Assembly (NCBI RefSeq): GCF_004114975.1
Contig: NZ_CP030052.1
Location: forward strand, 806,001 to 870,000
Length of the DNA: 64,000 nucleotides
Origin: Bradyrhizobium guangdongense
GTDB lineage: Bacteria > Pseudomonadota > Alphaproteobacteria > Rhizobiales > Xanthobacteraceae
Direction of reading: 5' to 3'
This document shows positions 16,462 to 39,057 of the stretch, piece after piece (the first letter of the stretch is position 1; every line of letters begins with the position of its first letter). The position numbers were made by a program, and so were the translations under genes. Below the pieces are notes generated by a model. It searched no databases. It had not been told where the DNA came from and worked only from the letters and a program-made list of their open reading frames with translations.

Positions 16462-16474
16462 CCATTTCATTGAC
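16462..16474 (+). repeat. Regulatory repeat copy 2 (13 bases)
   Basis: CCATTTCATTGAC on the plus strand, about 85 bases upstream of the ATG at 16559. It pairs with copy 1 at 16238-16250. Confidence 0.55.
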
Positions 16475-16558
16475 TGCGTATCACGCGGTCATAGACTTGA
16501 TCGTCTCGCCGCATCACGCGCCCACGTGTCGTAACAGGCAAGCAACAAGACAGATCAC

Positions 16559-19986: not shown

Positions 19987-20001
19987 CATATATGATGAAT
20001 T
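19987..20001 (+). repeat. Copy of a motif also found in the hipB promoter
   Basis: CATATATGATGAATT here matches CATATATGACGAATT at 21652-21666 with one difference. The two copies bracket hipBA, one at the 3' end of hipA and one upstream of hipB. It also lies just upstream of the decayed defence gene starting at 19941. Confidence 0.45.
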
Positions 20002-21232
20002 ATAGACCAAGCGCTGTGTCGCTCTGATCATGGACGAAGGCGGCTTCGTAGTCGCGCGATTGGGCACGGCCGACCCCTGCCCGTCGGAAAGTTTCCCGCC
20101 ATCCATCGGACACGCGTTGAGCTGTATCTCGGATGATCTTTCGCGCGTTGGCGTCGGTGATTTCGAAAAACTCGCAGGCCTCGAGGGCGAGCTTGATTGA
20201 TCGGTCGTGCGTGCCACCTTCCATGATCGCCGTCTCGAGATGCGGGTTGCGATCGGGCGCCGGGTTCACATCGAACATCGGCGACAGACGCCACCGTCCC
20301 GAACCGACGTACAGGAAGCCATGGTTCTTCAGATGATCATCCTTGTTCGAAACAAGGATAGTGAAGACCATCCGCCGATAGAGCTCCTCAAAATCGACTT
20401 GCGGATCCGGAGCTGACGTCCGCATGAAATCGACAATCTCCGTGTACGAACCGAGCTCTAAGCCTGTCTTCCCGAGCGCCGTTCGGGCGGAGATGTAGGG
20501 AATGCGGGCGCGGCCGCGTCGATCGAAACGCTGGACCAGCGCGACCGGAAATTTCGTGTCAGCGAGTTCCAGTCTGACCTCTGGAATGCGGATGCCGCAC
20601 ATCCTGGCAAGGTTCAGCGTCGCGACCTCGACCTGTTCGATCGGGTGCTGATCGTGGACGGAAGTGAACTTGGCAAGCCAGAGAACGTCGCCGTCACGAA
20701 CGTTGGCTTTGGGCCGAGCCCCGCCCGAGCCGCCGGCTCCGGCAAGAGCTTGCATGTCCGCAGGGGAAATCTCCTTGCCTTGTTCGTAGGCGCGGGCAAT
20801 CGCCGTGATCGCCTCTAGATCAAGAAGACGCGGTACCGCTTCGTTGGCCTTACCGGTAATGATCTTCCCATGTTCATCGATGAAACGCAGAGCACCTTGC
20901 CGGCATGTATCGTCGGACAGTGTGAGATATTCGAATTCAGAGAGGCCATTGCCATAGGCACGTTCAAGCAGTCTGCGCCCCCAGCTGTCGGGCGCAGCAT
21001 CGGAGAAGACGCCAGCAAGCGCCTCGCGCGAATTGCCAGACTGCGCCGACGCATGAAACGGCCCGCCCTCAAAGGGCATGTTCGGCTGCAATGCGAAAGC
21101 ACGCGGATCCTTCGCCCAGGCCGGGTCATAGGTGAAGATCGAAAATTGACGAGGCCCGGTCTGCGTGAAGCGTAGTTCACCGACTCGCGTTAAGCCTTCG
21201 CCAAGGGCTACTTGGGCGTAGTATTCAGTCAT
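20000..21232 (-). CDS. hipA: HipA-like serine/threonine kinase toxin
   Basis: A 410-residue protein with the HipA fold. The N-terminal domain contains FSDAAPDSWGRRLLERAYG, and the kinase part includes the ATP-site segment GAGGSGGARPKA (about 165-176) and WLAKFTS with the nucleotide-binding Lys. The catalytic loop is VSNKDDHLKNHGF (Asp299) and the metal motif is MFDVNP (Asp321). HipA toxins phosphorylate glutamyl-tRNA synthetase or related targets. All visible catalytic residues are intact. Its start overlaps the hipB stop by 1 base. It is the only intact toxin in a stretch of broken defence genes. Confidence 0.88.
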   Translation of the reverse strand: MTEYYAQVALGEGLTRVGELRFTQTGPRQFSIFTYDPAWAKDPRAFALQPNMPFEGGPFHASAQSGNSREALAGVFSDAAPDSWGRRLLERAYGNGLSEFEYLTLSDDTCRQGALRFIDEHGKIITGKANEAVPRLLDLEAITAIARAYEQGKEISPADMQALAGAGGSGGARPKANVRDGDVLWLAKFTSVHDQHPIEQVEVATLNLARMCGIRIPEVRLELADTKFPVALVQRFDRRGRARIPYISARTALGKTGLELGSYTEIVDFMRTSAPDPQVDFEELYRRMVFTILVSNKDDHLKNHGFLYVGSGRWRLSPMFDVNPAPDRNPHLETAIMEGGTHDRSIKLALEACEFFEITDANARKIIRDTAQRVSDGWRETFRRAGVGRAQSRDYEAAFVHDQSDTALGL

Positions 21233-21612
21233 CAGAAGGCCACGCCGTTCGGATCAACATCGTCCGGTTCGTTTTTCCCGTCCTTGTCGCCCTGCCTCTC
21301 CTGCTTGCGCAGCCTTGCAGCGTACGATCGACCGCGCTGCGGCAACCGCTCCGACGTCAACGCCAAACCCAGATCGTCTTTCCGTATATCGACGAGATCG
21401 GCGAGATTCTCGATAAGCCCGAGAGAGACGAGCACGTCCGCGAGCGTGCCTACGGCGACTCCCGGATCGCCTTTTTCCAGGCGTGCGATGGTGCTAGGCG
21501 ACGTACCCGCGCGCGCAGCCAAGTCGGCCACAGCCACACGACGGCGCAGGCGAGCCGATCGAAGGTCGTGACCAAGACGTTCAAGCGCGGCATTGGATTT
21601 GGGCGAACTCAT
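21232..21612 (-). CDS. hipB: HipB-like antitoxin, XRE-family DNA-binding protein
   Basis: A protein of 126 residues from the ATG at 21612. A helix-turn-helix of the XRE type spans about residues 8-62 (LGHDLRSARLRRRVAVADLA, then ARAGTSPSTIARLEKG). The C-terminal tail is polar and probably disordered (KQERQGDKDGKNEPDD). The longer frame from 21654 would run through the palindromic operator, so I prefer 21612. It should neutralise the downstream HipA-like kinase and repress the operon through the sites just upstream. Confidence 0.85.
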   Translation of the reverse strand: MSSPKSNAALERLGHDLRSARLRRRVAVADLAARAGTSPSTIARLEKGDPGVAVGTLADVLVSLGLIENLADLVDIRKDDLGLALTSERLPQRGRSYAARLRKQERQGDKDGKNEPDDVDPNGVAF

Positions 21613-21618
21613 AATATC

Positions 21619-21666
21619 ACCATATGTGGCGACTAACACTTGTTTATATGCCATATATGACGAATT
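21619..21666. promoter_or_regulatory. hipBA operator region
   Basis: TATATG (21645-21650) and CATATA (21652-21657) form a perfect palindrome around one base. A second, looser symmetric site (CCATATGTGG) is at 21620-21629. The last part overlaps the 15-base motif repeated at 19987-20001. Two symmetric sites upstream of an XRE antitoxin are typical of HipB autoregulation. Confidence 0.5.
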
Positions 21667-22301: not shown

Positions 22302-23078
22302 TCAAGGTGACGTGACGGGCCAGATCGATTGGCTTGCCGTTCGGTATGATGCTATTCTTTCCTTTAGGCCGACCTGCGAAGCGGACGCGATGAGCCTCAG
22401 CATGTCGAAGCCGTCACCCGTTTCTCCGCGAACGCTGCGAGCACTCGCTGCAGCCATCCAAATCGATTGATGCGTCGAACTATCTAGCCGACAGGCGCGA
22501 GCGGTCTCGCTAGACACTGCCCTTTCGATGTCTTCGTAGCCAATTTGTTTCATAGCCAAGCCGGATTCCAGCGCGGATTGCGCATCGACCGTCGCCCCTC
22601 CCATGATCCATTCCGCGGCCGTCGCGGCGCCGACGATCTCGGCGAGCCTTGAGGTACCCAAGACAAGGCCGAAATTCGCTCCCGGAAAGACGAACGACGA
22701 CCCCGGTAGGATCCAACGGATGGCACAGGCGCAGAACAGGTCGGCCCCGGCTCCGATCGCTCGCCCTCGGGCTATTGCCAACGTCGGGAAAGGTGCATTC
22801 TTGATCGCCTGGAGACAATATTCGATACGGACGAATCTTGCCAATAGCGTATCGTCTGTTTCCTCCTGGAGTCGCGACAGATCAAAGCCAGTGCAGAAGT
22901 TGCGCCCACTCGACTCGACGATCATAAGCCTGGCGCACGATCTTCGTGCCTCCTCTACCTCGCGCGTGAGGGCCGCGATCAAACCTGGGTTCAAGGCGTT
23001 GCCTACTTCCGGTCGGTTCAGGCGCAATCGCACGACACCGTCGGCGCGACCGACGAAAAGGTCTTCCGTCCCACTCAC
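22302..23078 (-). CDS. Enoyl-CoA hydratase/isomerase family protein
   Basis: A 258-residue crotonase-fold protein. Segments SSGRNFCTGFDLSRL (oxyanion-hole strand) and ARGRAIGAGADLFCACAIRW (second oxyanion glycine) are canonical. Where hydratases have catalytic glutamates the sequence (FPGANFGLVLGTSRLAEIVG) is divergent, so it may be an isomerase, a hydrolase or a retro-Claisen enzyme rather than a true hydratase. Its ATG overlaps the stop of the thiol dioxygenase by 4 bases. It is the last gene of the nine-gene operon and presumably processes the CoA ester made by the CaiB-type transferase. Confidence 0.82.
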   Translation of the reverse strand: MSGTEDLFVGRADGVVRLRLNRPEVGNALNPGLIAALTREVEEARRSCARLMIVESSGRNFCTGFDLSRLQEETDDTLLARFVRIEYCLQAIKNAPFPTLAIARGRAIGAGADLFCACAIRWILPGSSFVFPGANFGLVLGTSRLAEIVGAATAAEWIMGGATVDAQSALESGLAMKQIGYEDIERAVSSETARACRLDSSTHQSIWMAAASARSVRGETGDGFDMLRLIASASQVGLKERIASYRTASQSIWPVTSP

Positions 23079-23650
23079 TGCGCTGGCGCCCAGAGGTTGG
23101 GAGTGAGAGCATTGGAATAACCCGAGACAAACTCTTGGGTCTCACCGAGATCTTTGAAGACATGACGTCGGATTCTCCCGATATTCCCACCGTAGCAGTG
23201 GATACTAATGGACACGCGGTCATCGAACGCATTTCGCACTTGATGAATGTCGCCAACCGCTTCCGACACGATTTCCACGTCGCCTGGCTCCAGTCGCTCG
23301 GAACCACCGATCGGGTCCATCCCATAGGCCGTCCGGCCGTACCTCTGGTTGATCTCGGATCCTCGCAACATGCCGATGACACCCCACACGGAATGGTCAT
23401 GGACCGGCGTCTGCTGGCCCGGTCCCCAAACGAAGCTCACGACCGAAAAGCGATCAAGAGGGTCTCCATATAGCAGATGTTGCTGATAGAATTTGGGATC
23501 GGACAGCGCCATCGTCTCAGGCAACCAGTCATCCGTTGACACAAGCTCGCTCATCGCCTTCCTGACGCGCGAAACGACTATGACTTCGTCCTGAACGTTT
23601 TCGACACAGCGTGTCACCTCGGCCACAAATGCAAGCAGCTTTTGGCTCAC
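23075..23650 (-). CDS. Thiol dioxygenase of the cysteine/3-mercaptopropionate dioxygenase family
   Basis: A protein of 191 residues from a GTG at 23650, chosen because GGAGG lies just upstream and the previous gene stops at 23652. The cupin core has HDH (His84, His86) in PVHDHSVWGVIG and His136 in GDIHQVRN, the three-His iron site. The S-x-H-x-Y triad of thiol dioxygenases is present as SIHCY (Ser149, His151, Tyr153). The family adds O2 to a thiol to give a sulfinate; cysteine, 3-mercaptopropionate or a related thiol are candidates. Coupling to a family III CoA-transferase resembles 3-mercaptopropionate pathways, where the sulfinate is next made into a CoA ester. Confidence 0.85.
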   Translation of the reverse strand: MSQKLLAFVAEVTRCVENVQDEVIVVSRVRKAMSELVSTDDWLPETMALSDPKFYQQHLLYGDPLDRFSVVSFVWGPGQQTPVHDHSVWGVIGMLRGSEINQRYGRTAYGMDPIGGSERLEPGDVEIVSEAVGDIHQVRNAFDDRVSISIHCYGGNIGRIRRHVFKDLGETQEFVSGYSNALTPNLWAPAQ

Positions 23651-23651
23651 C

Positions 23652-24842
23652 TCAGTCCTCCGACCTTGTTGAAACTCGGTTGAGGTCCGGCTGCCTGCGG
23701 CTGTAGGCGTCACGGAACTCCTTTGTATGTTCACCCAGCAGGGGCGGTCGGCTCCGGATTTCAAAGCTTTCGCCGCCGAACTTCAGGGGCGATGCGAAAG
23801 TCTGCGTCGTTCGTCCACCCGGCAACTGGAGTTCTTTGATCCATCCCATGTGGCGCGTCTGAGGATCTCCAAGGGCCGCGTCGTAGCTATTAATCCTTGC
23901 ATGAGGCACACGAGCCTTCGCGAAGGCTCCGATCCAGTAATCGACCGGCTGGGTTTCGAATACGGCCTCCAGCAGCTCCTTGAGGGAGTGCTGGTTCGAA
24001 GCCCTGTCAGCGGTGGTAAGGAAACGCCCATCGGTGACGAGATAGTCGCGTCCGACGACACGACAGACCTCGCGCCACAGTCCGTCGTTGCCAGCCGCAA
24101 TCGCGAAGAAGCCGTCCGCCGCTCGATAAGCCTGGTAGGGCGCATTACGCGGGTGGGCGGATCCCAATCTGCGGGGGAGCAGACCAGTCCCGAAAAATTC
24201 ACTTGTCTGTAACGCGGCTATACCCAACGTGCAGCCAAACATCGGAACGTCTATGTGAGCGCCGTTGCCCCCCGCCCGAACCCGCACCAGAGCGGAGGTC
24301 ACGGCAAAAGCGGCGTATAGACCCGACGCAAAATCCGAGATCGGAACTCCGCATTTGACCGGCGCTCCATCGCTTTCGCCCGTTACGCTCATCACGCCAG
24401 CAGCGGCCTGAATGGTGAGATCAAACCCACCTTCGTCGGCTCGAGGTCCGGTTTGACCATATGCGGATATCGAGCAGTAGATAAGATCCGGCCTCTCCGC
24501 GGCGAATTGCGGATAACCGAGCCCCAAGCGCTCCATCACGCCGGGACGATTGTTCTCGATCAGCACGTCGGCATCGAGCACAAGCCGCCGCGCAATGTCA
24601 TTGTCCTCATCATTCTTGAGATCCAGGACGATCGATTTCTTGTTGCGATTGAGTGAGGCAAAGTTCTCGCTAAATCCTTCTGTCAACGGCGGCCATTGGC
24701 GTAAGCCATCTCCATTTGGCGGTTCGACCTTGATGACGCTCGCTCCCATATCCGAGAGCAGCATGGACGCGAAAGGCCCCGCTGCCGTCGAGCAGAATTC
24801 GACTACGCTAACCTGATCCAGGGGAAGTGGCTTCGACGACAT
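23652..24842 (-). CDS. CaiB/BaiF (family III) CoA-transferase
   Basis: A protein of 396 residues from the ATG at 24842 (SSKPLPLDQVSVVEFCSTAAGP). N-terminal family motifs are LLSDMGASVIKVEPPNGDGLRQ and RNKKSIVLDLKN. The catalytic aspartate is expected in GGFDLTIQAAAGVMSVTGE. Such enzymes move CoA from a donor thioester to a carboxylate. It sits directly upstream of the thiol dioxygenase and downstream of the MmgE/PrpD gene, so a carboxylate made by those steps is the likely acceptor. Confidence 0.88.
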   Translation of the reverse strand: MSSKPLPLDQVSVVEFCSTAAGPFASMLLSDMGASVIKVEPPNGDGLRQWPPLTEGFSENFASLNRNKKSIVLDLKNDEDNDIARRLVLDADVLIENNRPGVMERLGLGYPQFAAERPDLIYCSISAYGQTGPRADEGGFDLTIQAAAGVMSVTGESDGAPVKCGVPISDFASGLYAAFAVTSALVRVRAGGNGAHIDVPMFGCTLGIAALQTSEFFGTGLLPRRLGSAHPRNAPYQAYRAADGFFAIAAGNDGLWREVCRVVGRDYLVTDGRFLTTADRASNQHSLKELLEAVFETQPVDYWIGAFAKARVPHARINSYDAALGDPQTRHMGWIKELQLPGGRTTQTFASPLKFGGESFEIRSRPPLLGEHTKEFRDAYSRRQPDLNRVSTRSED

Positions 24843-24915
24843 ATTTTTTTCCGGTCGCAGTCGTTCTGCGCTGAATGGATCACGTGAGGCCGGATGCGTG
24901 GTCTTCCGGCCGCAC

Positions 24916-26322
24916 TCACGCGAAGCTCGAAGTGCGGAAAGCGTGGTTTGCCTTTGCTCCGAATCGCAGCAAACCGGTGAACCGGGACAGATGCCCTTCG
25001 CTCTCGATATTGTTGATGGCCTCGAAGAGCCTATCGGAGGATACCTTGTCCAATCTAGATTTGCAGCAATCGTCGAATTTTGCTTTGCGGTCGTCGAGGC
25101 TAAACGGGTATTTGAGGGTACCGACCGGAAGATCCCGCGACCGTTCCAGCGACCGGCCATTCTTCAACTTGACGGTAATGACATGAGGACGCATTAGGTC
25201 GACGTTCTTCTGCTCCTCCGCAGGATCGTAGCAACTGACGGTTGTCAGTCCGAAAAGTCGACGGTATTTTTCCTGCTTGACGGATTGCGGCGTGAAGTGA
25301 CTGAGCTTCGGAGCACCGTCGACAAGAGCCACGGCCATGCAATATTGCATAGAGAATCTAGCCTCCATTTCGGAGACTGGATTTGTGTACATCAGATTTC
25401 GCGAGTTACCGTATCCAATTAGCGTGTTGATGCTTTCGACCTCGTCGGCCTCGAACTTCTCTTGCGCCCTTAGCTCGAAGAACGCGTCTAGAACCCGGTG
25501 CGTCGAGGCGCAACACGGATAGCGTTTGAACATGAGACCGCGAGACTCCGCCGTCATCGGCGCGCCCAGTTTCTCGATGTTTTTTCCCCAGCCAGCCGGT
25601 CCTTTGCCGCCGAACAATTCGAGAAAGCCCATCCCTCCTTCAAGCGCATTCAGCCGTCCCTCGACGCCGGCCGCGGCCAATTGGGCCGCCTCGATGGCGT
25701 GCTGAGCGGCAAGCCCGGCGTGCAGAGGCTTTGCCATGCTGCCAAACTGGACCTTGCACCCAGACGCCATACTCGTCCCGAGGCTGAGCGCATGCGCGAA
25801 GCGCCTGGCATCCAGCTTGAGAAGCCGCGCGCAGGCGCCGGCGGCTCCGATGCACCCGATCGTCGAAGTGGAGTGCCAACCAAAATCGTAGTGGCTACGC
25901 ATCACACCGCTGCCGACCGCGAATTGGAGCTCTAGACCGACCAAATAGGCATCGATTAATTCGGCGCCCGAGGATCCCGCTTGCTCGCCAAGCGCCATGA
26001 GGGCCGAGACGAGAACCGAACTGGCGTGATTGACGCCCGGAAGGAACGTATCGTCATAGTCCAATGCATGGCCGGCCGTTCCATTTGCGAGCGCCGCCAG
26101 CTGCGGCAACACGGCCTTCTCCTCTCCGACGACCGTGCCAGGACCGGCACTATCGGAGGCGTACACCATCTTGCGGACGTTAGAGGCGCCGAGATCGTTG
26201 GATCCCGCTATGATGCAGGCAATTACGTCTTCAACAGCGTGCCGAGCGACGTCTCGCGCTGCCCTTGAATGTTCGAAGGGCGCTTCGGACCCCCACTTTG
26301 CAAGATGCTCGATGACCGTCAT
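24916..26322 (-). CDS. MmgE/PrpD family protein
   Basis: A protein of 468 residues from the ATG at 26322 (TVIEHLAKWGSEAPFEH). Family hallmarks include NGTAGHALDYDDTF, AYLVGLELQFAVG and KPLHAGLAAQHAIEAAQLA. The family covers 2-methylcitrate dehydratase, cis-aconitate decarboxylase and iminodisuccinate epimerase, all acting on small polycarboxylates. Which of these it is cannot be decided from sequence. No other methylcitrate-cycle gene is nearby, so a methylcitrate role is unlikely. It lies 40 bases after the ABC binding-protein gene. Confidence 0.85.
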   Translation of the reverse strand: MTVIEHLAKWGSEAPFEHSRAARDVARHAVEDVIACIIAGSNDLGASNVRKMVYASDSAGPGTVVGEEKAVLPQLAALANGTAGHALDYDDTFLPGVNHASSVLVSALMALGEQAGSSGAELIDAYLVGLELQFAVGSGVMRSHYDFGWHSTSTIGCIGAAGACARLLKLDARRFAHALSLGTSMASGCKVQFGSMAKPLHAGLAAQHAIEAAQLAAAGVEGRLNALEGGMGFLELFGGKGPAGWGKNIEKLGAPMTAESRGLMFKRYPCCASTHRVLDAFFELRAQEKFEADEVESINTLIGYGNSRNLMYTNPVSEMEARFSMQYCMAVALVDGAPKLSHFTPQSVKQEKYRRLFGLTTVSCYDPAEEQKNVDLMRPHVITVKLKNGRSLERSRDLPVGTLKYPFSLDDRKAKFDDCCKSRLDKVSSDRLFEAINNIESEGHLSRFTGLLRFGAKANHAFRTSSFA

Positions 26323-26362
26323 TGAATATTCTCCTCTCTCGGTGTCCAGTTGTCGATTTCCT

Positions 26363-27469
26363 CTATTGCGGTTTCCAAGCGCGGGCCTGCGCCCGGAGCT
26401 CAGCGGGATCGAAACCGCCACAATCGTTCTTGAACCGTTGGTCCGCGTACTTTGATATTTCCATCCGCTCCGGAAGGATTCCGTTCTCGTACAGCTTGTC
26501 GACGGTGTGCTGAACGGTCGGCAGTTCCTGGTAGCCGATGATGCCACCGGCTCCTCTGTGGTTCACGACGTCGAGCTTGGCTCTCAGGATGACCTCGCCT
26601 TCCCGGACCGCTTCATCAAGTGGTTTGTTCGATGGGAGCTGGCCAGGATAGACCTTAAAGTGATTGCGCACGGTCCCTTCGATGTTTCCTTCGGCGAAGA
26701 AGAACGATTCGTAGAGCGCACGGCACAGGCCTGCGACCACCTTCGGATGCTTTTCGATTTCACTGCGGGTGACAACCATACCGACCATACCAACGAGATC
26801 GTTCAGCGGGGACGGCACGTCTCTCATCTTCACGCCGAGGAGATTTCCGATCACCGCGTTCGGGCTATCGAACCCCGCGAAAGCCTGGATCTTGCCGCTT
26901 TTCAAAGCGTCCGCCGCTGGTGCTCCGAGACCGACCGGCAGGAAGGTCACGTCCTTGTCGGGATCGAGGCCGGCTTCCTTGAGGATAGCCTTGCCATACG
27001 GATAGGCCGCCGTGCCAAAACTACCGACTCCAATAACTTTACCTTTCAGGTCTAAGGGACCCTTCACCGGACTATCGGGGGGCACAATCACCCGGAGAGA
27101 ATTGCCGGGGTCGAACGAGACGATAACAAGGTTCGGGTCTTGACGGGCGAGCGGCAAGAAGGACGCTAACGCCACCAAAGTATAGAATGCATTGCCGTTG
27201 CTTACGGCCTGCACCGCAGCCGTCGCGCCAGCGGTAGGTTGAAACTTGACCGTCACCCCCGCGTACTTCTCCGGCAACTTCAAGGTGGGCTGGAGCGATG
27301 AGTAAGGCGCGGACCCGATGCTCAATGCTGTATCCGAGGATGCGAAGGTCACTTCCTTCAGACTCTCGGCTTGCGTCGCACCACAGACGAAGACGGACAG
27401 ATTGGCTGCAACCGCCAAACAACCTACTAAACGCAAGGACTTCCTCCATTCAATCGTGCCGAAAGGCAT
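26363..27469 (-). CDS. ABC transporter substrate-binding protein (NMT1/TauA-like)
   Basis: A 368-residue periplasmic protein with a signal peptide of about 34 residues (core LVGCLAVAANLSVFVCGATQA). The mature domain has SIGSAPYSSLQPTLKLPEKY, GNSLRVIVPPDSPVKGPLDLKGKVIG and AFAGFDSP, consistent with the sulfonate/taurine/thiamine-precursor class. The C-terminal LYENGILPERMEISKYADQRF is typical. It partners the permease and ATPase encoded just upstream in the same operon. The ligand is unknown; operon content suggests an organic sulfur or carboxylic compound. Confidence 0.85.
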   Translation of the reverse strand: MPFGTIEWRKSLRLVGCLAVAANLSVFVCGATQAESLKEVTFASSDTALSIGSAPYSSLQPTLKLPEKYAGVTVKFQPTAGATAAVQAVSNGNAFYTLVALASFLPLARQDPNLVIVSFDPGNSLRVIVPPDSPVKGPLDLKGKVIGVGSFGTAAYPYGKAILKEAGLDPDKDVTFLPVGLGAPAADALKSGKIQAFAGFDSPNAVIGNLLGVKMRDVPSPLNDLVGMVGMVVTRSEIEKHPKVVAGLCRALYESFFFAEGNIEGTVRNHFKVYPGQLPSNKPLDEAVREGEVILRAKLDVVNHRGAGGIIGYQELPTVQHTVDKLYENGILPERMEISKYADQRFKNDCGGFDPAELRAQARAWKPQ

Positions 27470-27488
27470 TGCGTGCCCATACCTGCAA

Positions 27489-28313
27489 TCAGCCCCACGC
27501 CATTGACTGAAGAGCTCGGGTCACCGTCCTGACGATGCTTCTAAGGCTTATGCCGATTGCGGCCGTGAGAGCGAGGACCGCATAAACGGCCGCTATGTCG
27601 CCCGTGAACGACTTTTGTTGAATGACCTGCCCCAGACCTGCGGCTCCGCCGACCAGTTCGGCAGCGATTGCTCCGAGCAAAGCCAGCACGATGGCCACAT
27701 CGAGAGAAGGCACGATGAAAGCCATCGCGAAGGGCAGCCTCAATTTGCGAAGTTCTTGTAGCCGCGTCGCCTTCATCGATCGCAGCAGATCGATCATGTC
27801 CGAGTTCACTTCAGTGAATCCGGCAAGTGTAGCGGTGAATACCGGAAAGAAGGCGAGTAGAGCCGAAATGATGACCTTCGGTCCTATGCCGTATCCGAAC
27901 CAGGCTATCAGCAAGGGAGCGATAGCGATCTTCGGGAACGTCTGAACAGCAATGACGTAGGGATAGCCGGCACGCCGCAGGAGCCCCGAATATGCGAACG
28001 TCGCCCCCAGAGTGATGGCGACGACCGTTCCAAACAGGAAGCCAAGTACGGTTTCGTTGAATGTCACGAGGATGTCGTTCAGGAAGCGTCCGCCGACCAC
28101 GCCTTCGTAGAGCGCGCCCGCTACCAGAGCTGGGCTCGGGAGGATCAGAGCGGACACAAGTCGATATTGGGACGAGAGTTGCCAGATAGCGAGAAGCAGC
28201 AGCGCAATGCCGAGCGCTAGCAGTGCTGCTCCGAATTTTCGGCCCCCCTCTAGGATCGAGGGGACTGAGCCGATCTCGGATTCGCTTCTCACGGCCTGGC
28301 TGGACACTTGCAT
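27489..28313 (-). CDS. ABC transporter permease (SsuC/TauC class)
   Basis: A protein of 274 residues from the ATG at 28313, which has GGAG just upstream; a longer frame would overlap the ATPase gene. About six membrane helices are visible. The EAA-type coupling loop is in LLRSMKATRLQELRKLRLPFAMAFIVPSL. It is 34 bases downstream of the ATPase gene and 19 bases upstream of the binding-protein gene. Confidence 0.88.
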   Translation of the reverse strand: MQVSSQAVRSESEIGSVPSILEGGRKFGAALLALGIALLLLAIWQLSSQYRLVSALILPSPALVAGALYEGVVGGRFLNDILVTFNETVLGFLFGTVVAITLGATFAYSGLLRRAGYPYVIAVQTFPKIAIAPLLIAWFGYGIGPKVIISALLAFFPVFTATLAGFTEVNSDMIDLLRSMKATRLQELRKLRLPFAMAFIVPSLDVAIVLALLGAIAAELVGGAAGLGQVIQQKSFTGDIAAVYAVLALTAAIGISLRSIVRTVTRALQSMAWG

Positions 28314-28347
28314 TCTCCGTTTACAACATCGAACGATAGGTCCCGAG

Positions 28348-29193
28348 TCACAAATGAAGCCTATCGAAGGCATCCCGGGCTCTCGCCACCTCCCGGAAAA
28401 ATTCTTGCTTCTTCCGGAGTGAGGCGTCCCTCACAGCGGGAAAGCCCTGCGCTTCGATGATGCTGTCTAAGCGCCCGGGTCTTGGGGCCATCACTCCGAT
28501 GCGATCAGACAGAAAGACCGCTTCGGATATGTTGTGCGTGACGAAGATGATGGTCTTTTGCGCGCTCTTTTGCAGACCCATCAGTTCATCGTTCAGGCGC
28601 TCACGCGTGAATTCGTCGAGCGCGCTGAAGGGCTCGTCCATGGCCAGGATTTCGGGATCTGTGATCAACGCCCGAGCTATCGCCGCTCGTTGTTGCATGC
28701 CGCCGGATAACTCGTCTGGCGAGCGATTTTTGAAAGCGGCAATTCCCATCATCTCAAGCAGGCGATCGGCCCGCGATCTCGCCTCTTGCATCGAGCATGA
28801 TTTCGTCACCTCGACGGGAAGGAGAAGATTCTGAAGAACCGTTCGCCAGGGTAGAAGCGTGGACTTCTGGAAGACCATACCGATCCGTGAATCCGGTCCG
28901 GTCACTTGCGTGCCATTTATGAAAACGCCACCTGTCGTGGGGGTGGTGAGGCCGGCGATGATGCGGAGCAAGGTTGTCTTGCCGCATCCCGACGGTCCGA
29001 TGAAGCTGAAGAACTCGCCCTTCCGGATCGTGAGGGAAAGCGGCTTGAGCGCCACGGTCTGTTCCGAAGCGCCGAGCGCGAAGATCTTCGATACATCGCG
29101 AACGTCGATGCCGGTAGCCGACGGCGCGGCGTCTTCGCTGCGTGCCGTCGGCACTTCGCGCCTCTTCGACTCAGCCGCCCGCACGAGCTGCAT
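28348..29193 (-). CDS. ABC transporter ATP-binding protein (SsuB/TauB class)
   Basis: A 281-residue ATPase. Walker A is GPSGCGKTT, Q-loop MVFQKSTLLPWRTV, signature LSGGMQQR, Walker B ILAMDEP, and H-loop IIFVTHNISEA. About 28 residues precede the fold (basic, with KRREVPTARSED). It overlaps the upstream decarboxylase subunit gene by 23 bases, which ties the transporter tightly to the ThDP enzyme. Confidence 0.9.
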   Translation of the reverse strand: MQLVRAAESKRREVPTARSEDAAPSATGIDVRDVSKIFALGASEQTVALKPLSLTIRKGEFFSFIGPSGCGKTTLLRIIAGLTTPTTGGVFINGTQVTGPDSRIGMVFQKSTLLPWRTVLQNLLLPVEVTKSCSMQEARSRADRLLEMMGIAAFKNRSPDELSGGMQQRAAIARALITDPEILAMDEPFSALDEFTRERLNDELMGLQKSAQKTIIFVTHNISEAVFLSDRIGVMAPRPGRLDSIIEAQGFPAVRDASLRKKQEFFREVARARDAFDRLHL

Positions 29194-29803
29194 CCGCCAA
29201 AGCAGCCTTGAAACGGACGCGGCACACGGCCGGATCCAGAGTTCGCTTAAACTTCGGCGGATCGGTGGGCTTGACCCGCATCAAGATGAAGACGGCATCT
29301 TCAGATTCCCGCAGCAACTTGCTGCCTTTCGGTAGCTCGGCTGCTGTACCGATAGTCAGGGTGCGCCTGATGCCGGACCCGACGGCGATCTTCTCAAGGT
29401 CTACGCCCAAACTCGTATGGCTGCGCTGGTAGCCGGTTTCGCCGTAGTGACCGTTGTCGACACAAACGATTCTCAAGTTGGGAGGATTGCGGACGCCGAT
29501 GGTGGCCAGGGACCCGACGTTCATCAGCAACTCTCCGTCACCGCAAAAGGCGATGACGGTACGATCGGGACGAGCGAGAGCGAGACCCAACCCCATCATC
29601 GTCGCCGCCCCCATGGCCCCTCCGAGACCATAGGCGGACGGACCATCGTTCACCAGCGAAGTCACATCGCGCGCGGTGCCAGCCAAGCCCGCGATGAACA
29701 GGAACTCCTTGTGACCTCCCACTAACGCTGGAACGGCCTCACGTCGATCAAGGACGTAGCGCTCGTCGAACTCCGGATTGCCAACATTTGCTTTCATGAT
29801 CAT
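29171..29803 (-). CDS. ThDP-dependent decarboxylase, cofactor-binding subunit (sulfopyruvate/phosphonopyruvate decarboxylase beta-like)
   Basis: A 210-residue subunit with the ThDP-binding domain: GDGELLMNVGSLATIG begins the GDG motif and ends about 28 residues later with VCVDNGHYGETG (Asn and Gly metal ligands). The N-terminal AVPALVG and LGGAMGAATMMGLGLA match ComE/phosphonopyruvate decarboxylase C-terminal halves. With the subunit at 29809-30366 it would form an active alpha/beta enzyme, decarboxylating a 3-sulfo- or 3-phosphono-pyruvate-like acid to an aldehyde. The ATG at 29803 follows AGGGGG, 5 bases after the partner's stop. Confidence 0.82.
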   Translation of the reverse strand: MIMKANVGNPEFDERYVLDRREAVPALVGGHKEFLFIAGLAGTARDVTSLVNDGPSAYGLGGAMGAATMMGLGLALARPDRTVIAFCGDGELLMNVGSLATIGVRNPPNLRIVCVDNGHYGETGYQRSHTSLGVDLEKIAVGSGIRRTLTIGTAAELPKGSKLLRESEDAVFILMRVKPTDPPKFKRTLDPAVCRVRFKAALADAARAGG

Positions 29804-29808
29804 GCCCC

Positions 29809-30366
29809 CTAGAACGCCTTCGCGCCGATGAGTTTTTGAGTGAGGAGGACCGCAACTGCCTCGCCGCCTTGGAAGGCCATCGTGATGGCAGCCGAGACGA
29901 CAGGCACGACGTCCTCAGGCCGGTCTACACGCAGACATCGAACCGACATCGCTTCCAGGACCGGCTCGACGGCCCTCCCCATCGGCATCTGCCAGGGATT
30001 ACCCTCGCCGAAATCTCCGCGCATACTCAGGAGCGTCAAGAAAGGGAAGCGTCCGCCCGCTATCAGGGAGAGAAGGTTGACGCAATTACCCGCGCCGCTG
30101 CTCTGCATAAGCAGCACGCCACGGGCGCCGCCCAACTCGGCACCCGCCATCATCGCGACACCTTCTTCTTCGGTTGTAAGCGCGATCGACTCGACCTCGG
30201 CATCTGCGAGCGACTCGTTGATGAGAACGGTGTGGCCGGCATCCGGGACGTAGGCAAACTGCGTGAAGTTGTTTCGTCGGAGCAGGTCGTACAACTCATA
30301 TTGCCAGCCCGCCCGGGCGGCTTCCTTCGCCTTAACGCGGCTCTCTGCGTGCACAGCTGCTGACAA
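29809..30366 (-). CDS. ThDP-dependent decarboxylase, pyrimidine-binding subunit (sulfopyruvate/phosphonopyruvate decarboxylase alpha-like)
   Basis: A 185-residue subunit starting at a TTG (30366) that is preceded by AAGGAGG. The catalytic glutamate that activates ThDP lies in LTTEEEGVAMMAGAELGG, and SSGAGNCVNLL and LLSMRGDFGEGNPWQMPMGR are typical of ComD-type subunits. Split alpha/beta organisation is the sulfopyruvate decarboxylase arrangement; most phosphonopyruvate decarboxylases are single chains. This is the first gene of the minus-strand operon, facing the aldehyde dehydrogenase gene. Confidence 0.82.
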   Translation of the reverse strand: MSAAVHAESRVKAKEAARAGWQYELYDLLRRNNFTQFAYVPDAGHTVLINESLADAEVESIALTTEEEGVAMMAGAELGGARGVLLMQSSGAGNCVNLLSLIAGGRFPFLTLLSMRGDFGEGNPWQMPMGRAVEPVLEAMSVRCLRVDRPEDVVPVVSAAITMAFQGGEAVAVLLTQKLIGAKAF

Positions 30367-30658
30367 TGAACGATCCTCCTTGTATCTCCGACCAACCCGG
30401 CAACCGGGACGACGTCGTAGTGATTGCTACGATCAGTGAGCCGGAGACGTCAAGGCGAGATCGACAGCCGGTCGCTTCCCGCGCTGCACCAAACCACGGC
30501 CGTCGCGACAAATTTACTCGAAGTCCCCGAAGCTTACGCGCAGGACAAGCCTCCTCTTTCATTTTGATCATACTTCCATAACAGCTGCTGTCGTTGCCCA
30601 TGCTGCTACCTCGATCTATTGAGCTGCTTGTTGCGAACGCTCAAACGGAGGAGATGGA
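30367..30658. promoter_or_regulatory. Divergent promoter region, decarboxylase operon / aldehyde dehydrogenase
   Basis: This 292-base gap lies between the TTG at 30366 and the ATG at 30659. Ribosome sites are visible on both sides (AAGGAGG for the minus strand; GGAGGAG before 30659). No clear palindrome or -35/-10 pair stands out and no regulator gene adjoins it, so control may come from a distant factor. Confidence 0.4.
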
Positions 30659-32107
30659 ATGCAGCACTTCGAGATGGTGATCGGAGGAAAAAAGCGCGCG
30701 TCAAAGAGCCAACGGCGATTGGAAACACAGAACCCTTTTACATCAGAGACCTGGGCGACTGTCCCGCAAGCCGATGCTTCCGACGTGAACGACGCAGTCG
30801 ACTCCGCACACAGGTCATTCGTCGAAGGACCTTGGCCTCGGCTGACCGGAAAGCAGCGAGGGGTTATTCTTCACCGGGTTGGAGATCTCGTGCTGAAGAA
30901 CATCGAGAGCCTGGCGCGATGGGAGATCCGCGACAACGGAAAGACTATTTCCGAAATGCGGACCCAAATGCAGACGATGGCGCAGTGGTATCACTACTAC
31001 GCCGGCCTTGCCGACAAGGTCCACAGCTCCGTTATCCCCGTCGATCCGGAGAATTATTTCAACTACACACGATACGAGCCGATCGGCGTCGTCGCCGCGA
31101 TCACTCCGTGGAATTCGCCGTTGAGACTTCTTTCCTGGAAGATTGCCCCGGCCCTCGCCGCCGGCAACACGGTGGTCGTCAAGCCATCAGAATTCACATC
31201 CACATCGACACTGTTGTTCGTGGATCTGCTCGAAGAGGCTGGAGTGCCGCCCGGCGTCGTGAATGTTCTTACCGGCTACGGCTCCGAGATCGGACCCGCG
31301 CTGGTCCAGCACCCACTAGTCGCCAAGATCTCCTTCACTGGTGGTGTCGACGCCGGTCGCAAAGTCTACGAGCTCGCCGCTCGCCACCTCAAACCGGTAG
31401 CCCTGGAACTGGGCGGGAAATCGCCTAACATCATTTTCGAGGACGCCGATCTGGATGCTGCGGCAGCCGGTGCCGTCGGAGGTATTTTCTCCTCGACCGG
31501 GCAAACATGTGTCGCGGGCTCCCGCCTACTCGTTCAAGAGACGGTGCTTGAACAGATCCTTGAAAAGCTGGTCCGGCGTGGAAGCGGCATGCGGCTGGGC
31601 GACCCGTTGGATCCAGCGACCGACATCGGCCCTGTCGCGACGGAACAGCAATTCCGCAAGATACTTTCGATGATTGACACAGCCAGCTCGGAGGGCGCGC
31701 GGCTAGTGCTTGGCGGCAAGCGATCCCACGCCCCGGAATGCGGCAAGGGATGGTTCGTCGAACCGACGATCTATGCCGATGTGAAGAACACGATGACGAT
31801 TTCCCAGCAGGAAGTCTTTGGTCCCGTTCTTTCTGTTATCGCGTTCAAGGATGAAGAGGATGCGATCCGCACGGCTAATGCGACCAACTTCGGCTTAGCC
31901 GGGGGATTCTGGACCAAGGACGTAAGTCGCGCTCACCGCGTCGCAGCCCGACTCCAGGCCGGAACGGTCTGGATCAACATGTATCGGAAGACTGATCCTG
32001 CCGTTCCCTTTGGTGGTTACAAGACATCCGGCTTGGGGCGTGAAAGTGGGATCGACGCGATGAAGGATTTCCTTCAGACGAAGAGCGTGTGGCTCCGATT
32101 GCAGTAG
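30659..32107 (+). CDS. NAD(P)-dependent aldehyde dehydrogenase
   Basis: A 482-residue ALDH of normal length. Nucleotide-binding and catalytic elements include TPWNSPLRLLSWKIAPALAAGN (149-170), FTGGVDAGRKV, Glu250 in LELGGKSPN and the nucleophile Cys284 in GQTCVAGSR. It oxidises an aldehyde to an acid. Facing a two-subunit ThDP decarboxylase, the expected substrate is the aldehyde made by that enzyme (sulfoacetaldehyde if the substrate is sulfopyruvate). GGAGGAG upstream fixes the start. It is transcribed with the downstream glutamate dehydrogenase. Confidence 0.9.
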   Translation: MQHFEMVIGGKKRASKSQRRLETQNPFTSETWATVPQADASDVNDAVDSAHRSFVEGPWPRLTGKQRGVILHRVGDLVLKNIESLARWEIRDNGKTISEMRTQMQTMAQWYHYYAGLADKVHSSVIPVDPENYFNYTRYEPIGVVAAITPWNSPLRLLSWKIAPALAAGNTVVVKPSEFTSTSTLLFVDLLEEAGVPPGVVNVLTGYGSEIGPALVQHPLVAKISFTGGVDAGRKVYELAARHLKPVALELGGKSPNIIFEDADLDAAAAGAVGGIFSSTGQTCVAGSRLLVQETVLEQILEKLVRRGSGMRLGDPLDPATDIGPVATEQQFRKILSMIDTASSEGARLVLGGKRSHAPECGKGWFVEPTIYADVKNTMTISQQEVFGPVLSVIAFKDEEDAIRTANATNFGLAGGFWTKDVSRAHRVAARLQAGTVWINMYRKTDPAVPFGGYKTSGLGRESGIDAMKDFLQTKSVWLRLQ

Positions 32108-32124
32108 ACATCCCGCTGCTATTT

Positions 32125-32149
32125 CGGGCCTGCGTGCTTGCACGCCCGC
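32125..32149 (+). terminator. GC-rich hairpin after the aldehyde dehydrogenase gene
   Basis: GCGTGC (32132-32137) and GCACGC (32140-32145) pair, with flanking CGGGC and GCCCG offering an alternative stem. There is no T run, so it is a weak intrinsic terminator or an mRNA 3' stabiliser between the two plus-strand genes. Confidence 0.3.
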
Positions 32150-32260
32150 AAGTTCTCACGTGATCGCCGGCGCTGCGAGACAGCCGCGCGTCCTCCATCC
32201 GCTCGCGGGCGCTTAGTCGATTGCTCCCGGGCCGTCGCTTATTGATAAATCGGAGCCAAA

Positions 32261-33520
32261 ATGAGCATCTATAGTGGGCCCGTCTTCGAGATGGCTTCAC
32301 GACAGTTCACCGTGATTGCCGATCATCTGGCAATTCCCATCGACGAACGCAGCCGCTTGCTTCTTCCCAAGCGCGCCATCTCGGTTTCTTGCCCCATCCA
32401 TTGTGATGACGGGTCGATCTCCGTATTCGAGGGCTATCGAGTCCAGCATCACCTTACACTCGGGCCGACCAAGGGAGGAACGCGCTTTGCCGCTAGTGTT
32501 GATATCGGCGAAGTCGCCGCCCTCGCGATTTGGATGAGCTGGAAATGCGCACTGGTCGGACTACCCTATGGCGGCGCGAAGGGCGGTATTCGTGTCGATC
32601 CAGCGAAGATTTCCCACCGAGAGCTTGAGGCGCTCTCGCGCCGCTATATGCAGGAGATGATTCCGTTCGTGGGTCCGCACGTCGACGTCATGGCTCCCGA
32701 TATGGGCACCAACGAGCAAGTGATGGCGTGGTTCATGGACACGTATTCCATGTACCAGGGGCGTACCGTAACGGAGATCGTAACCGGCAAGCCTGTTGGC
32801 GCGGGAGGCACCTTAGGGCGTCGGGAGGCGACAGGACGCGGCGTCGCCCATCTGGCCAAACGAGTTTTGAAGGATCTGTCGATCGACTGGTCGACGGCGA
32901 CCGCGGTGGTTCAAGGCTTCGGCAACGTCGGCTCGTACGCGGCACTGGAGTTGAGCAGGAGCGGCGTCAAGATAGTAGGTGTCGGCGACCACACGGGCGC
33001 ATTTTACGACCGTGCAGGCCTCAACGTCACACAGTTGATCCGTCATGCGGCGAGGCACGGAAGTCTGTCTGATTATCACGAAGCGCCCCGTCTCGATCCA
33101 GCCGAGCTCCTGCAGCTTCCTTGCGACGTCCTTGTGCCAGCAGCCATGGAGCGGGTGATCGATGATCGCGTGGCGCGGGATCTGCGATGTCGCGTGCTTG
33201 CTGAGGGCGCCAACGGCCCGACCACTCCGGAGGCTGATCTGGTCCTAGAGAGGCGCCGCAACGAGATATTCCTCATACCGGATATTCTCTGTAACTCGGG
33301 CGGCGTGATCGTGAGTTATTTCGAGTGGCTTCAAGACCTCCAGCAATTGTTCTGGGAAGAAGAAGAGGTTATGCGGAGGGAATATCAGATCCTCGATCGC
33401 GCATTCAACGATATGGTTACCCGCGCCGCTCGTGACAACGTCTCTCATCGAACCGCCGCCATGGCCATAGGTGTCGAACGAGTGCGGGCAGCGAAAACGA
33501 CCCGAGGGCTTTTCCCATAA
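32261..33520 (+). CDS. Glu/Leu/Phe/Val dehydrogenase, probable glutamate dehydrogenase
   Basis: A 419-residue amino acid dehydrogenase. The substrate domain includes GPTKGGTRFAASVD and the catalytic-lysine motif GLPYGGAKGGIRVDP; the Rossmann domain has VQGFGNVGSYAALEL. Length and motifs fit hexameric NAD(P)-glutamate dehydrogenase, which interconverts glutamate with 2-oxoglutarate and ammonium. In this setting it would regenerate 2-oxoglutarate for transamination of an amino acid feeding the decarboxylase, although no aminotransferase lies in the same operon. Confidence 0.88.
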   Translation: MSIYSGPVFEMASRQFTVIADHLAIPIDERSRLLLPKRAISVSCPIHCDDGSISVFEGYRVQHHLTLGPTKGGTRFAASVDIGEVAALAIWMSWKCALVGLPYGGAKGGIRVDPAKISHRELEALSRRYMQEMIPFVGPHVDVMAPDMGTNEQVMAWFMDTYSMYQGRTVTEIVTGKPVGAGGTLGRREATGRGVAHLAKRVLKDLSIDWSTATAVVQGFGNVGSYAALELSRSGVKIVGVGDHTGAFYDRAGLNVTQLIRHAARHGSLSDYHEAPRLDPAELLQLPCDVLVPAAMERVIDDRVARDLRCRVLAEGANGPTTPEADLVLERRRNEIFLIPDILCNSGGVIVSYFEWLQDLQQLFWEEEEVMRREYQILDRAFNDMVTRAARDNVSHRTAAMAIGVERVRAAKTTRGLFP

Positions 33521-34746: not shown

Positions 34747-35595
34747 ATGGTTGACGGACACGACTACCAGGAATGGATCGGGCGCACAGTAACCCAGGAA
34801 GACATGGTGACAGCCAGTCCGATTGAGCGTCTGGATGCGACCCTCGAAACCGACCACCAGCTCTATTCAACGGGGGTTGCGCTGCCTCCGCTGGCCCACT
34901 GGTTGTATTTTCTACCTAACGAACGGCAATCGACATTAGGGCCTGACGGGCATCCCAAGCGCGGGGGCTTTCTTCCTCCCATCCATGACCTTCCCCGGCG
35001 GATGTGGGCGGGCAGCAGGCTCACCTTTAAGAGCCCGCTGCGCGTGGGCATGCATGTCAAGCGGACATCGACGATCGAAAGCGTGACGTCCAAACAAGGT
35101 ACGACCGGCCCTCTGGTGTTCGTCACGGTAGGGCACGCCGTCCACGACGAGAACGGCCATCTACTTCTGACGGACCATCACGACATTGTCTATCGAGATG
35201 TCACAGCGCCCGCCGACAGAGCGAGATCAACTGCACCGAAAGGACCATGGCATCGCAGCATCGTGCCGGATACCGTCATGCTGTTTCGCTATTCGGCTCT
35301 CACGTTCAACGGCCATCGTATTCACTATGACCGAACGTACGTCTTTGCGGTGGAAGGTTATCCAGGCCTGATCGTCCATGGTCCGCTCATTGCTACTCTC
35401 CTGATCGATCTCGTTAGGCGCAGTCTCCCTTCCTCAGTGGTGGTGAAGGCATATTCCTTCCGCGCGGTGTCGCCGCTTTTCGACGGCAGCGAACTTCATC
35501 TGAATGGCAGTCCGCCGGACGAAACCGGAAAAATCCTGCTGTGGGCCACGAACGATCGGGACGAGCTTATCATGAAGGCGGAAGCTACAATCTAA
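34747..35595 (+). CDS. MaoC/FAS1-like dehydratase (itaconyl- or mesaconyl-CoA hydratase-like)
   Basis: A 282-residue double hot-dog protein. The N-terminal half contains LPPLAHWLYFLPNERQS and a GGFLPPIHDLPRRMWAGSRL stretch typical of the mesaconyl-C4-CoA/itaconyl-CoA hydratase group. The C-terminal half has the MaoC-like FRYSALTFNGHRIHYDRTYV, where Asn and His/Asp positions form the hydratase site. It adds water across the double bond of an enoyl-CoA derived from a C5 dicarboxylate, or performs the reverse. It is followed 13 bases later by a CoA-transferase gene, consistent with a two-gene activation and hydration module. Confidence 0.8.
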   Translation: MVDGHDYQEWIGRTVTQEDMVTASPIERLDATLETDHQLYSTGVALPPLAHWLYFLPNERQSTLGPDGHPKRGGFLPPIHDLPRRMWAGSRLTFKSPLRVGMHVKRTSTIESVTSKQGTTGPLVFVTVGHAVHDENGHLLLTDHHDIVYRDVTAPADRARSTAPKGPWHRSIVPDTVMLFRYSALTFNGHRIHYDRTYVFAVEGYPGLIVHGPLIATLLIDLVRRSLPSSVVVKAYSFRAVSPLFDGSELHLNGSPPDETGKILLWATNDRDELIMKAEATI

Positions 35596-35608: not shown

Positions 35609-36760
35609 GTGACGCGGCCACTGGACGGGGTATTGGTCATCGCAATCGAGCAGGCAATCGCGGCTCCCTATTGCACGCGTCAGCTTGCCGACCTCGGCGC
35701 CCGAGTCATAAAGATCGAACGGCCCGATGGTGGCGACTTTGCTCGGGCCTATGATACGCGTGCGCGTGGTCTTGCCAGTCATTTCGTCTGGACCAATCGG
35801 TCGAAAGAGAGCGTCACCTTCGACCTGAAACGGCCGGGAGCGTTGGAAGCCGTGCAACGGCTCATCGCGCACGCAGACGTGTTTGTGCAAAATCTTGCTC
35901 CAGGGGCAGCTGCCCGCCTAGGGCTCGCCGATGGCGTGCTGCGCTCCACATACAAGCAGCTGATTACTTGCAACATATCTGGATACGGTCCGAATGGGCC
36001 GTGGGAGAAGCGCAAAGCATACGATCTACTGATTCAGGCGGAGGCCGGCTTTTTGTCAACGACCGGCACGCCGGACGCCGTTGCAAAGGCCGGCATCTCG
36101 ATTGCTGACATCGCTGCGGGCACAATGGCTTTTCAGGGCATTTTGGCCTGCTTGCTGCGTCGAGCCAAAAGCGGACAGGGCGATCATGTCGAAGTCTCGA
36201 TGCTGGAGGCCATGGTGGAATGGATGGGATATCCGCTTTACTATGCGATGGACGGAGCACAACCTCCGGCTCGGGCGGGAGCTGGCCATGCCACGATCTT
36301 CCCATATGGGCCCTACGAAACTGCTGATGGCATGGTACTTTTCGGACTTCAAAATGATCGCGAGTGGGCCGCGTTCACGACGATCGTCTTACAACGGCCC
36401 GAGTGGGCCAGCGAAGCACGCTTTAAGGGCAATGCGGGCCGGATGAAAGAGCGAGCTGAGATCGATGCCGTCATCTGTGACACGTTCCGCAAGCTGCCGT
36501 CGAACGAAGCCATCTCGCGCCTCGAGACCGCCGGGATCGGTACGGCTCGCGTGAATGACATGTCCGCCGTGTGGGATCATCCGCAACTGCGCAGCCGCAA
36601 GCGCTGGGCTTATATCGAAACCCCGGCGGGCCCGATGCCATCTTTGCGACCAATTAGCGGTGAGTCCTGGCAGCCGCGTATGGACCCGGTGCCGTCCCTC
36701 GGACAACATACCGAGGCCGTCTTGAAGGAATTCGGTCTGACCGAGTTCCGCGAGAGCTGA
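35609..36760 (+). CDS. CaiB/BaiF (family III) CoA-transferase
   Basis: A 383-residue CoA-transferase starting at GTG 35609 with AGGTCGGAGG-type ribosome bases just upstream. Motifs: TRQLADLGARVIKIERPDGGDFAR, WTNRSKESVTFDLKRP, and the catalytic-Asp segment KAYDLLIQAEAGFLSTTG. The C-terminal GQHTEAVLKEFG is standard. It probably loads CoA onto a dicarboxylate whose thioester is then hydrated by the MaoC-like enzyme. The convergent gap 36761-36897 is short and shows no gene. Confidence 0.88.
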   Translation: MTRPLDGVLVIAIEQAIAAPYCTRQLADLGARVIKIERPDGGDFARAYDTRARGLASHFVWTNRSKESVTFDLKRPGALEAVQRLIAHADVFVQNLAPGAAARLGLADGVLRSTYKQLITCNISGYGPNGPWEKRKAYDLLIQAEAGFLSTTGTPDAVAKAGISIADIAAGTMAFQGILACLLRRAKSGQGDHVEVSMLEAMVEWMGYPLYYAMDGAQPPARAGAGHATIFPYGPYETADGMVLFGLQNDREWAAFTTIVLQRPEWASEARFKGNAGRMKERAEIDAVICDTFRKLPSNEAISRLETAGIGTARVNDMSAVWDHPQLRSRKRWAYIETPAGPMPSLRPISGESWQPRMDPVPSLGQHTEAVLKEFGLTEFRES

Positions 36761-39029: not shown

Positions 39030-39057
39030 GGGTGCTCCTTTCGGCAGGACCTTCGTT

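Follow-up and report, generated by a model that had tools for sequence, protein, structure and literature searches.

A possible composite catabolic operon, with a thiol module and a branched-diacid module, on a symbiosis plasmid of peanut Bradyrhizobium

The published pathway for 3-mercaptopropionate uses the desulfinase AcdA (PMC6370202, PMC5373536). The MmgE/PrpD family members of itaconate clusters interconvert (S)- and (R)-methylsuccinate, and a four-carbon diacid backbone is common to the substrates known for the family (PMC12290011, PMC9875883). LumK/LumL, a split decarboxylase dependent on thiamine diphosphate (ThDP), acts on a heterocycle (PMC12746152); the split architecture therefore does not predict a sulfonate substrate. 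The locus compared here with these systems lies at positions 22302–33520 of the window, by which we mean the whole 64,000-nucleotide (nt) stretch analysed (Bradyrhizobium guangdongense, assembly GCF_004114975.1, contig NZ_CP030052.1, positions 806,001–870,000, forward strand). An earlier note on this DNA had proposed that the cluster forms one organosulfur catabolic system; the part of that proposal comprising a dioxygenase, a coenzyme A (CoA)-transferase and a crotonase is supported, while the decarboxylase probably does not belong with it. The analysis shows gene order, gene families and the separate conservation of two modules. The boundaries of the cluster run across two systems, and we tentatively favour reading it as a composite catabolic operon in which a thiol module is joined to a branched-diacid module.

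All the genes described below are open reading frames at the coordinates given. Nine lie on the minus strand, divergent from two on the plus strand (an aldehyde dehydrogenase and a glutamate dehydrogenase-like gene), an arrangement already described in the earlier note and confirmed by the reading frames, families and gaps. From ECH, the crotonase-fold gene at one end, to TPPa, the alpha half of a split decarboxylase at the other, the intergenic gaps are −4, +1, +73, +40, +19, +37, −23 and +5 nt (the +37 value depends on the permease start, itself uncertain); with gaps of −23 to +73 nt, the nine genes likely form one transcription unit. The cluster is real and not a product of chance. It is carried by a 981,946 bp Bradyrhizobium plasmid, and six plasmid records of peanut isolates, each of 979–982 kb and together covering several Bradyrhizobium species, contain the segment 22302–32107 (9,806 bp, the glutamate dehydrogenase gene not included) at 100% identity; TPPa recurs without change (100% identity) in 6 of 242 Bradyrhizobium genomes, its own genome counted. 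The annotation of the cluster in NZ_CP030058.1 agrees with the families found here, and a B. zhengyangense contig carries a matching gene set. Type II peanut strains are reported to share a symbiotic plasmid of identical sequence (PMC7324677). Taken together, these copies of the full gene set represent about one lineage; in the sequences searched, the set was found nowhere but on this plasmid and on the B. zhengyangense contig that matches it, nor was a description of the combination found in the open-licence literature searched. Plasmid NZ_CP030058.1 has been typed as mobilizable (MOBP).

The thiol module consists of MDO (23075–23650, minus strand, GTG start, Pfam CDO_I), the family III CoA-transferase CoAT (23652–24842, minus strand, CoA_transf_3) and ECH (22302–23078, minus strand, Pfam ECH_1). 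The closest solved relatives of MDO are 3-mercaptopropionate dioxygenases, matched over nearly the full length (3uss and 4tlf, E = 5.5e-64; 4wvz, 1e-62). The three iron histidines and the S-x-H-x-Y triad that had been noticed earlier are indeed present, as H84, H86 and H136 and as S149-x-H151-x-Y153, and Q56-Q57 align with the QQ of 3uss. Cysteine dioxygenase bears an Arg at the position where the 3-mercaptopropionate type has Gln. Judged by its sequence, MDO is thus a dioxygenase of the 3-mercaptopropionate type. Assignment as a mercaptosuccinate dioxygenase was considered and rejected, the match being weak (8vni, 6e-6).

The best 80 of the 167 dioxygenase loci retrieved with MDO, all in named genomes, were examined for CoAT (at least 50% identity within 4 kb), ECH (at least 35% within 6 kb) and a rhodanese-like gene (within 3 kb); in 19 of them one flank was shorter than 4 kb. 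CoAT and ECH were both present in 20 loci and both missing from 60, and in no case was one found singly. The commonest neighbour was the rhodanese-like gene (50 of the 80 loci L036–L115); this context and the CoAT plus ECH context never coincided, and 10 loci had neither. When presence of the module is mapped onto a tree of these 80 dioxygenases, no fewer than three changes on well-supported branches are required; the module therefore extends over several dioxygenase subgroups. When the search was made from the ECH side, using 20 loci hand-picked across the identity range of 129 Alcaligenaceae genomes and reading 14–15 kb of each, CoAT was present in 19 and MDO in 11. CoAT and ECH therefore behave as a tight pair, with MDO as a frequent partner; CoAT also adjoins ECH in all of the best 20 ECH matches. 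The likeness to 3-mercaptopropionate degraders that the earlier note saw in the dioxygenase and CoA-transferase is borne out by these counts, as is its grouping of the crotonase gene with them. In a Hydrogenophaga metagenome-assembled genome the dioxygenase type occurs on two contigs (L056, L085), possibly as a real second copy or as an assembly effect.

ECH belongs to a clade in which the second catalytic Glu is replaced by Gly. In an alignment of 22 ECH sequences (three incomplete, one of them from a gene split in its record, L213, with the pieces left unjoined), at least 21 share an Asp in the first catalytic position, a Gly in the second and three Arg residues; the single other crotonase homologue aligned (the second copy in L036) has Glu at the second position. 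ECH thus lacks the two catalytic Glu of enoyl-CoA hydratases, and conservation of the Asp/Gly pair makes a role as an ordinary hydratase unlikely. Its closest solved relative, 3isa, is named merely as a putative hydratase/isomerase. In the TBEA6 cluster, deletion of the crotonase family gene VPARA_05510 slowed growth on thiodipropionate (PMC6370202, PMC5373536).

No protein in the genome carrying the cluster exceeded the NCBIfam cut-off for AcdA (best 245 bits versus 600), nor did any in the 20 module genomes; among 30 dioxygenase genomes lacking the module, one did. This check covered 50 of the 80 dioxygenase genomes, with up to 30 candidates scored in each. Because AcdA falls below the cut-off in the carrier genome and in the 20 module genomes, ECH is a candidate alternative desulfinase, and we propose, with reserve, that it may do the job of AcdA on 3-sulfinopropionyl-CoA. 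Scanning 268 Alcaligenaceae genomes (up to six AcdA candidates scored per genome) returned AcdA over the cut-off in 22 and relatives of the Achromobacter ECH (E ≤ 1e-35) in 129. Twenty of the 22 AcdA loci were fetched: all hold a CoA-transferase of another lineage (33–37% identical to CoAT), five hold MDO and none ECH. The AcdA loci thus have the same gene set with AcdA replacing ECH. A relative of AcdA at 12048–13217 of the window was rejected as the missing desulfinase (107 of 600 bits for AcdA, SfnB scoring better).

The second module centres on the split ThDP 2-oxo acid decarboxylase formed by TPPb, the beta half (29171–29803, minus strand, TPP_enzyme_C), and TPPa, the alpha half (29809–30366, minus strand, TTG start), with the divergent ALDH, an aldehyde dehydrogenase of the ALDH family (30659–32107, plus strand), and the Glu/Leu/Phe/Val dehydrogenase, a glutamate dehydrogenase-like protein (32261–33520, plus strand, ELFV/Glu dehydrogenase). 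TPPa has no Pfam match at E ≤ 0.001, and reaches 101.8 bits with the NCBIfam sulfopyruvate decarboxylase alpha model (cut-off 147.95); TPPb reaches 117.6 bits with the beta model (cut-off 221.5). Similarity to 9iz3 is low (E = 4.1e-9 and 3.4e-14 for the alpha and beta halves, respectively). TPPa relatives (E ≤ 0.001) occur in 241 of 242 Bradyrhizobium genomes and in 45 of 398 genomes of a phylum sample.

To define the company that this enzyme keeps, 45 TPPa/TPPb loci were read (27 from Bradyrhizobium, taken mostly and non-randomly from the best-scoring matches, and 18 others), five regions with the identical set being left out. A MaoC protein resembling itaconyl-CoA hydratase was present in 26, a CaiB2-like transferase in 27 and an acyl-CoA dehydrogenase in 27; ALDH was present in 10, all of them among the 18 non-Bradyrhizobium loci. 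The thiol module was found in none of the 45 at fixed thresholds. In the control set of 79 dioxygenase loci, MaoC, the CaiB2-like transferase, the acyl-CoA dehydrogenase and TPPb numbered zero and ALDH two, and neither TPPa nor TPPb was found. The organosulfur role that the earlier note gave the decarboxylase is therefore disfavoured, and in the loci read outside one plasmid lineage the dioxygenase and decarboxylase are not neighbours, an outcome that the note itself had named as refuting its proposal. TPPa, TPPb and ALDH are consecutive on several annotated plasmids, in four of them with a LysR gene directly ahead. An acyl-CoA dehydrogenase, a CaiB/BaiF transferase, a MaoC protein and a CoA ester lyase lie near TPPa/TPPb in Mesorhizobium AR02, Haematobacter and Bosea, and in Deinococcus taeanensis MmgE directly precedes TPPa. 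The plasmid of locus L345 also carries consecutive genes annotated as phosphosulfolactate synthase, PrpF-domain and MmgE/PrpD proteins (L345 positions 28449–31877; record positions 120448–123876).

Genes of the same kind adjoin the cluster in the window. The MaoC protein at 34747–35595 (plus strand) matches itaconyl-CoA hydratase 8khg with E = 2.8e-67, and no NCBIfam model at E ≤ 1e-10. Beside it is CaiB2 (35609–36760, plus strand), a second family III CoA-transferase and candidate C5-diacid CoA-transferase, which among PDB chains comes closest to ones named formyl-CoA transferase and succinate-HMG CoA-transferase. The block at 36898–41646 (minus strand; biotin carboxylase, PxpA, biotinyl proteins and PxpB/PxpC-like carboxyltransferases) encodes a biotin-dependent lactam-type enzyme and has a similar counterpart next to TPPa/TPPb in Mesorhizobium AR02 (L342); the window biotin carboxylase, PxpA and aminotransferase are 60, 41 and 57% identical to genes of the AR02 plasmid.

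Between the two ends of the operon are MmgE (24916–26322, minus strand, MmgE/PrpD family), a candidate epimerase or lyase of 2-substituted succinates, and the genes of an ATP-binding cassette (ABC) importer, all on the minus strand: an NMT1/SsuA-like substrate-binding protein (26363–27469, NMT1-type), a permease of uncertain start (27489–28310, BPD permease) and an ATPase (28348–29193, ABC ATPase family). Among solved structures, MmgE comes closest to B. subtilis 'IRG1' (7bra), IDS epimerase and cis-aconitate decarboxylase. A 2-methylcitrate dehydratase (PrpD) role was rejected: the PrpD model gave 44.5 bits versus 950, and PrpB, at best 173.4 versus 354.4, was nowhere over the cut-off in the genome. 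Relatives of MmgE at E ≤ 1e-75 occur in 12 of 385 genomes of the class, its own counted; the sole relative read in context, on a Ketogulonicigenium plasmid, has no decarboxylase or thiol gene there.

On the favoured reading, the thiol module would handle a 3-mercaptopropionate-type thiol: MDO would add O2 to the thiol to give a sulfinate, CoAT would move CoA onto the carboxylate, and ECH, in AcdA's stead, would release sulfur from the CoA ester as sulfite, leaving a propionyl-CoA-type product. The branched-diacid module (TPPa/TPPb, ALDH, the glutamate dehydrogenase-like enzyme and the neighbouring MaoC protein and CaiB2) might convert a 2-oxo (or amino) diacid, via an aldehyde, to a branched C5 diacid, for instance itaconate or methylsuccinate, whose CoA ester would enter central metabolism. 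MmgE could epimerise a 2-substituted succinate, and the importer may serve the modules. The natural candidate substrate of the second module is 4-methylene- or 4-methylglutamate; 4-methylene-2-oxoglutarate, formed from 4-methyleneglutamine or 4-methyleneglutamate, would yield itaconate through TPPa/TPPb and ALDH. In peanut, the host plant, 4-methyleneglutamine is one of the main nitrogen compounds. No report of the bacterial use of 4-methyleneglutamine or -glutamate, or of their presence in peanut, was found in the literature searched, including the available part of PMC11854323.

Several observations weigh against this reading. AcdA is rare in genomes without the module too, and its absence is therefore weak evidence; moreover, 15 of the 22 AcdA-bearing Alcaligenaceae genomes also carry ECH, an overlap on which the idea of strict genome-level alternatives was dropped. 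As for the decarboxylase, 19 of the 26 loci with the hydratase gene appear to be copies of a single orthologous Bradyrhizobium locus, chosen from the best matches; the other 8 of the 27 Bradyrhizobium loci, two paralogs from the carrier genome included, are without the hydratase gene, and none of the 27 has ALDH at the threshold used. Two Methylobacterium plasmids have neither ALDH nor an itaconate-type set at TPPa/TPPb, and in Shinella the neighbours are tricarboxylate genes. The window MmgE shares only 27–31% identity with four MmgE proteins encoded near other TPPa/TPPb, and so only a substrate class, 2-substituted succinates or four-carbon diacids, is put forward for it as a candidate. Outside the six copies, none of the plasmid relatives of the binding protein among the 20 matches listed exceeds 33% identity, which leaves the importer without context evidence. 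The annotation shows no acyl-CoA dehydrogenase of the itaconate type next to the operon. A weak candidate for the last step, a CoA transferase with a CitE-like lyase at 58283–60418 (plus strand; best NCBIfam model RipC), lies 24 kb away, and the best score for the citramalyl-CoA lyase RipC was 142 bits versus 375, the rest of the genome not being searched.

The modules might also be metabolically unlinked, sharing a promoter or importer through recent plasmid assembly, an explanation that we consider unlikely. How close the nearest relatives are, once the plasmid's own copies are set aside, varies from gene to gene, and the histories of the genes may therefore differ: in the protein collection MDO identities drop from 99% to 67% and below (nearest 66–67%), the best 119 TPPa relatives listed beyond its own cluster are 73–83% identical, and the nearest MmgE relatives are at 90, 84 and 79%. 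The confinement of the full set to this plasmid and the B. zhengyangense contig, within the sequences searched, fits as well; the overlapping or near-touching genes across the whole unit do not, nor does its unchanged state in the six plasmid records, although these may be recent copies. Nine of the 20 ECH loci lack MDO in the 14–15 kb read, so that CoAT and ECH may act on something else, which also counts against the composite reading. That they are a general acid-activation and hydrolysis pair, the sulfinate being handled elsewhere, is nevertheless rather improbable; the L314 pair does sit with class I CoA-transferase-like and acyl-CoA ligase-like genes (named by eye from sequence), but in 20 of the 80 MDO loci CoAT and ECH occur together and, at the thresholds used, in none singly, and outside Bradyrhizobium the ECH of module loci is 38–56% identical to that of the window.

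The tightness of the unit suggests one pathway rather than two. In a linear homocysteine-type route, deamination would give 4-mercapto-2-oxobutyrate, which TPPa/TPPb and ALDH would turn into 3-mercaptopropionate for MDO, CoAT and ECH. Most of the enzymes in this single nine-gene unit would be used in order, ending on the MDO substrate type, yet we consider it doubtful: TPPa/TPPb and MDO are not neighbours in any of the 79 MDO or 45 TPPa loci outside the plasmid, just 5 of the 20 module genomes have any TPPa relative (E ≤ 1e-10), one of these with this same set, and MmgE is left without a job. Both modules could instead serve one thiol adduct of a methylene C5/C6 diacid, such as 2-(mercaptomethyl)succinate or 4-(mercaptomethyl)-2-oxoglutarate, arising from peanut itaconate- or 4-methyleneglutamate-derived compounds and sulfide or thiols. 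Such an adduct would be at once a substituted 3-mercaptopropionate (for MDO, CoAT and ECH) and a 2-substituted succinate (for MmgE), and would thus fit both modules; even so, we regard it as quite improbable. Thiol dioxygenases make sulfinates, not sulfonates. This tells against the route of the earlier note, in which a cysteate- or sulfolactate-like sulfonate would pass through sulfopyruvate to sulfoacetaldehyde and be oxidised. The best NCBIfam models for the two subunits are those of sulfopyruvate decarboxylase, the importer is SsuA-like and sulfonate genes lie nearby; both scores, however, fall below the curated cut-offs, no Xsc exceeds its cut-off in the genome (best 294 versus 676.4), and elsewhere the decarboxylase often keeps itaconate-type company, all of which makes this route highly improbable.

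Flanking the operon, 9987–17539 holds SsuA-type binding proteins, an alkanesulfonate/dimethylsulfone monooxygenase-like LLM protein, an SfnB-like flavoprotein and an ABC importer, probably sulfur scavenging genes. A HipA-type protein with a helix-turn-helix partner (20000–21654) is directly downstream.

The ECH clade is a candidate second type of 3-sulfinopropionyl-CoA desulfinase, and dioxygenases of the 3-mercaptopropionate type have two gene contexts, which never overlap in the 80 loci examined. Where split ThDP enzymes of soil bacteria are named 'sulfopyruvate decarboxylase' or 'phosphonopyruvate decarboxylase', the name may be a sign of branched-diacid catabolism. Were the thiol adduct the true substrate, sulfur loss would feed the neighbouring itaconate-type enzymes, making this an undescribed, symbiosis plasmid-borne recovery pathway for itaconate-type thiol adducts with a crotonase-fold desulfinase.

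Compared with the Mdo/Act or SucCD/AcdA pathway of Variovorax paradoxus TBEA6 and Advenella mimigardefordensis (PMC6370202, PMC5373536), the operon has the same dioxygenase type beside a family III CoA-transferase, but it has a crotonase-fold gene in place of an AcdA over the cut-off, a CoA-transferase of another lineage (33–37%), and an extra decarboxylase, MmgE and ABC importer. TPPa/TPPb share the split two-subunit ThDP architecture of the ComDE sulfopyruvate and RhiEF phosphonopyruvate decarboxylases (PMC12141560; PDB 9iz3), but lie below both NCBIfam cut-offs, resemble 9iz3 little and have other neighbours; LumK/LumL (PMC12746152), likened by architecture alone, is also a split ThDP decarboxylase in a catabolic operon. 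With the itaconate/methylsuccinate cluster ich, mcd, mmgE, ict and ccl (PMC12290011, PMC9875883) the locus has in common the adjacent hydratase-like gene and CaiB-type transferase and an MmgE/PrpD gene in the operon, whereas its MmgE is distant from the four examined near other TPPa/TPPb, its lyase is weakly matched, a decarboxylase and ALDH stand in front, and the thiol module is present.

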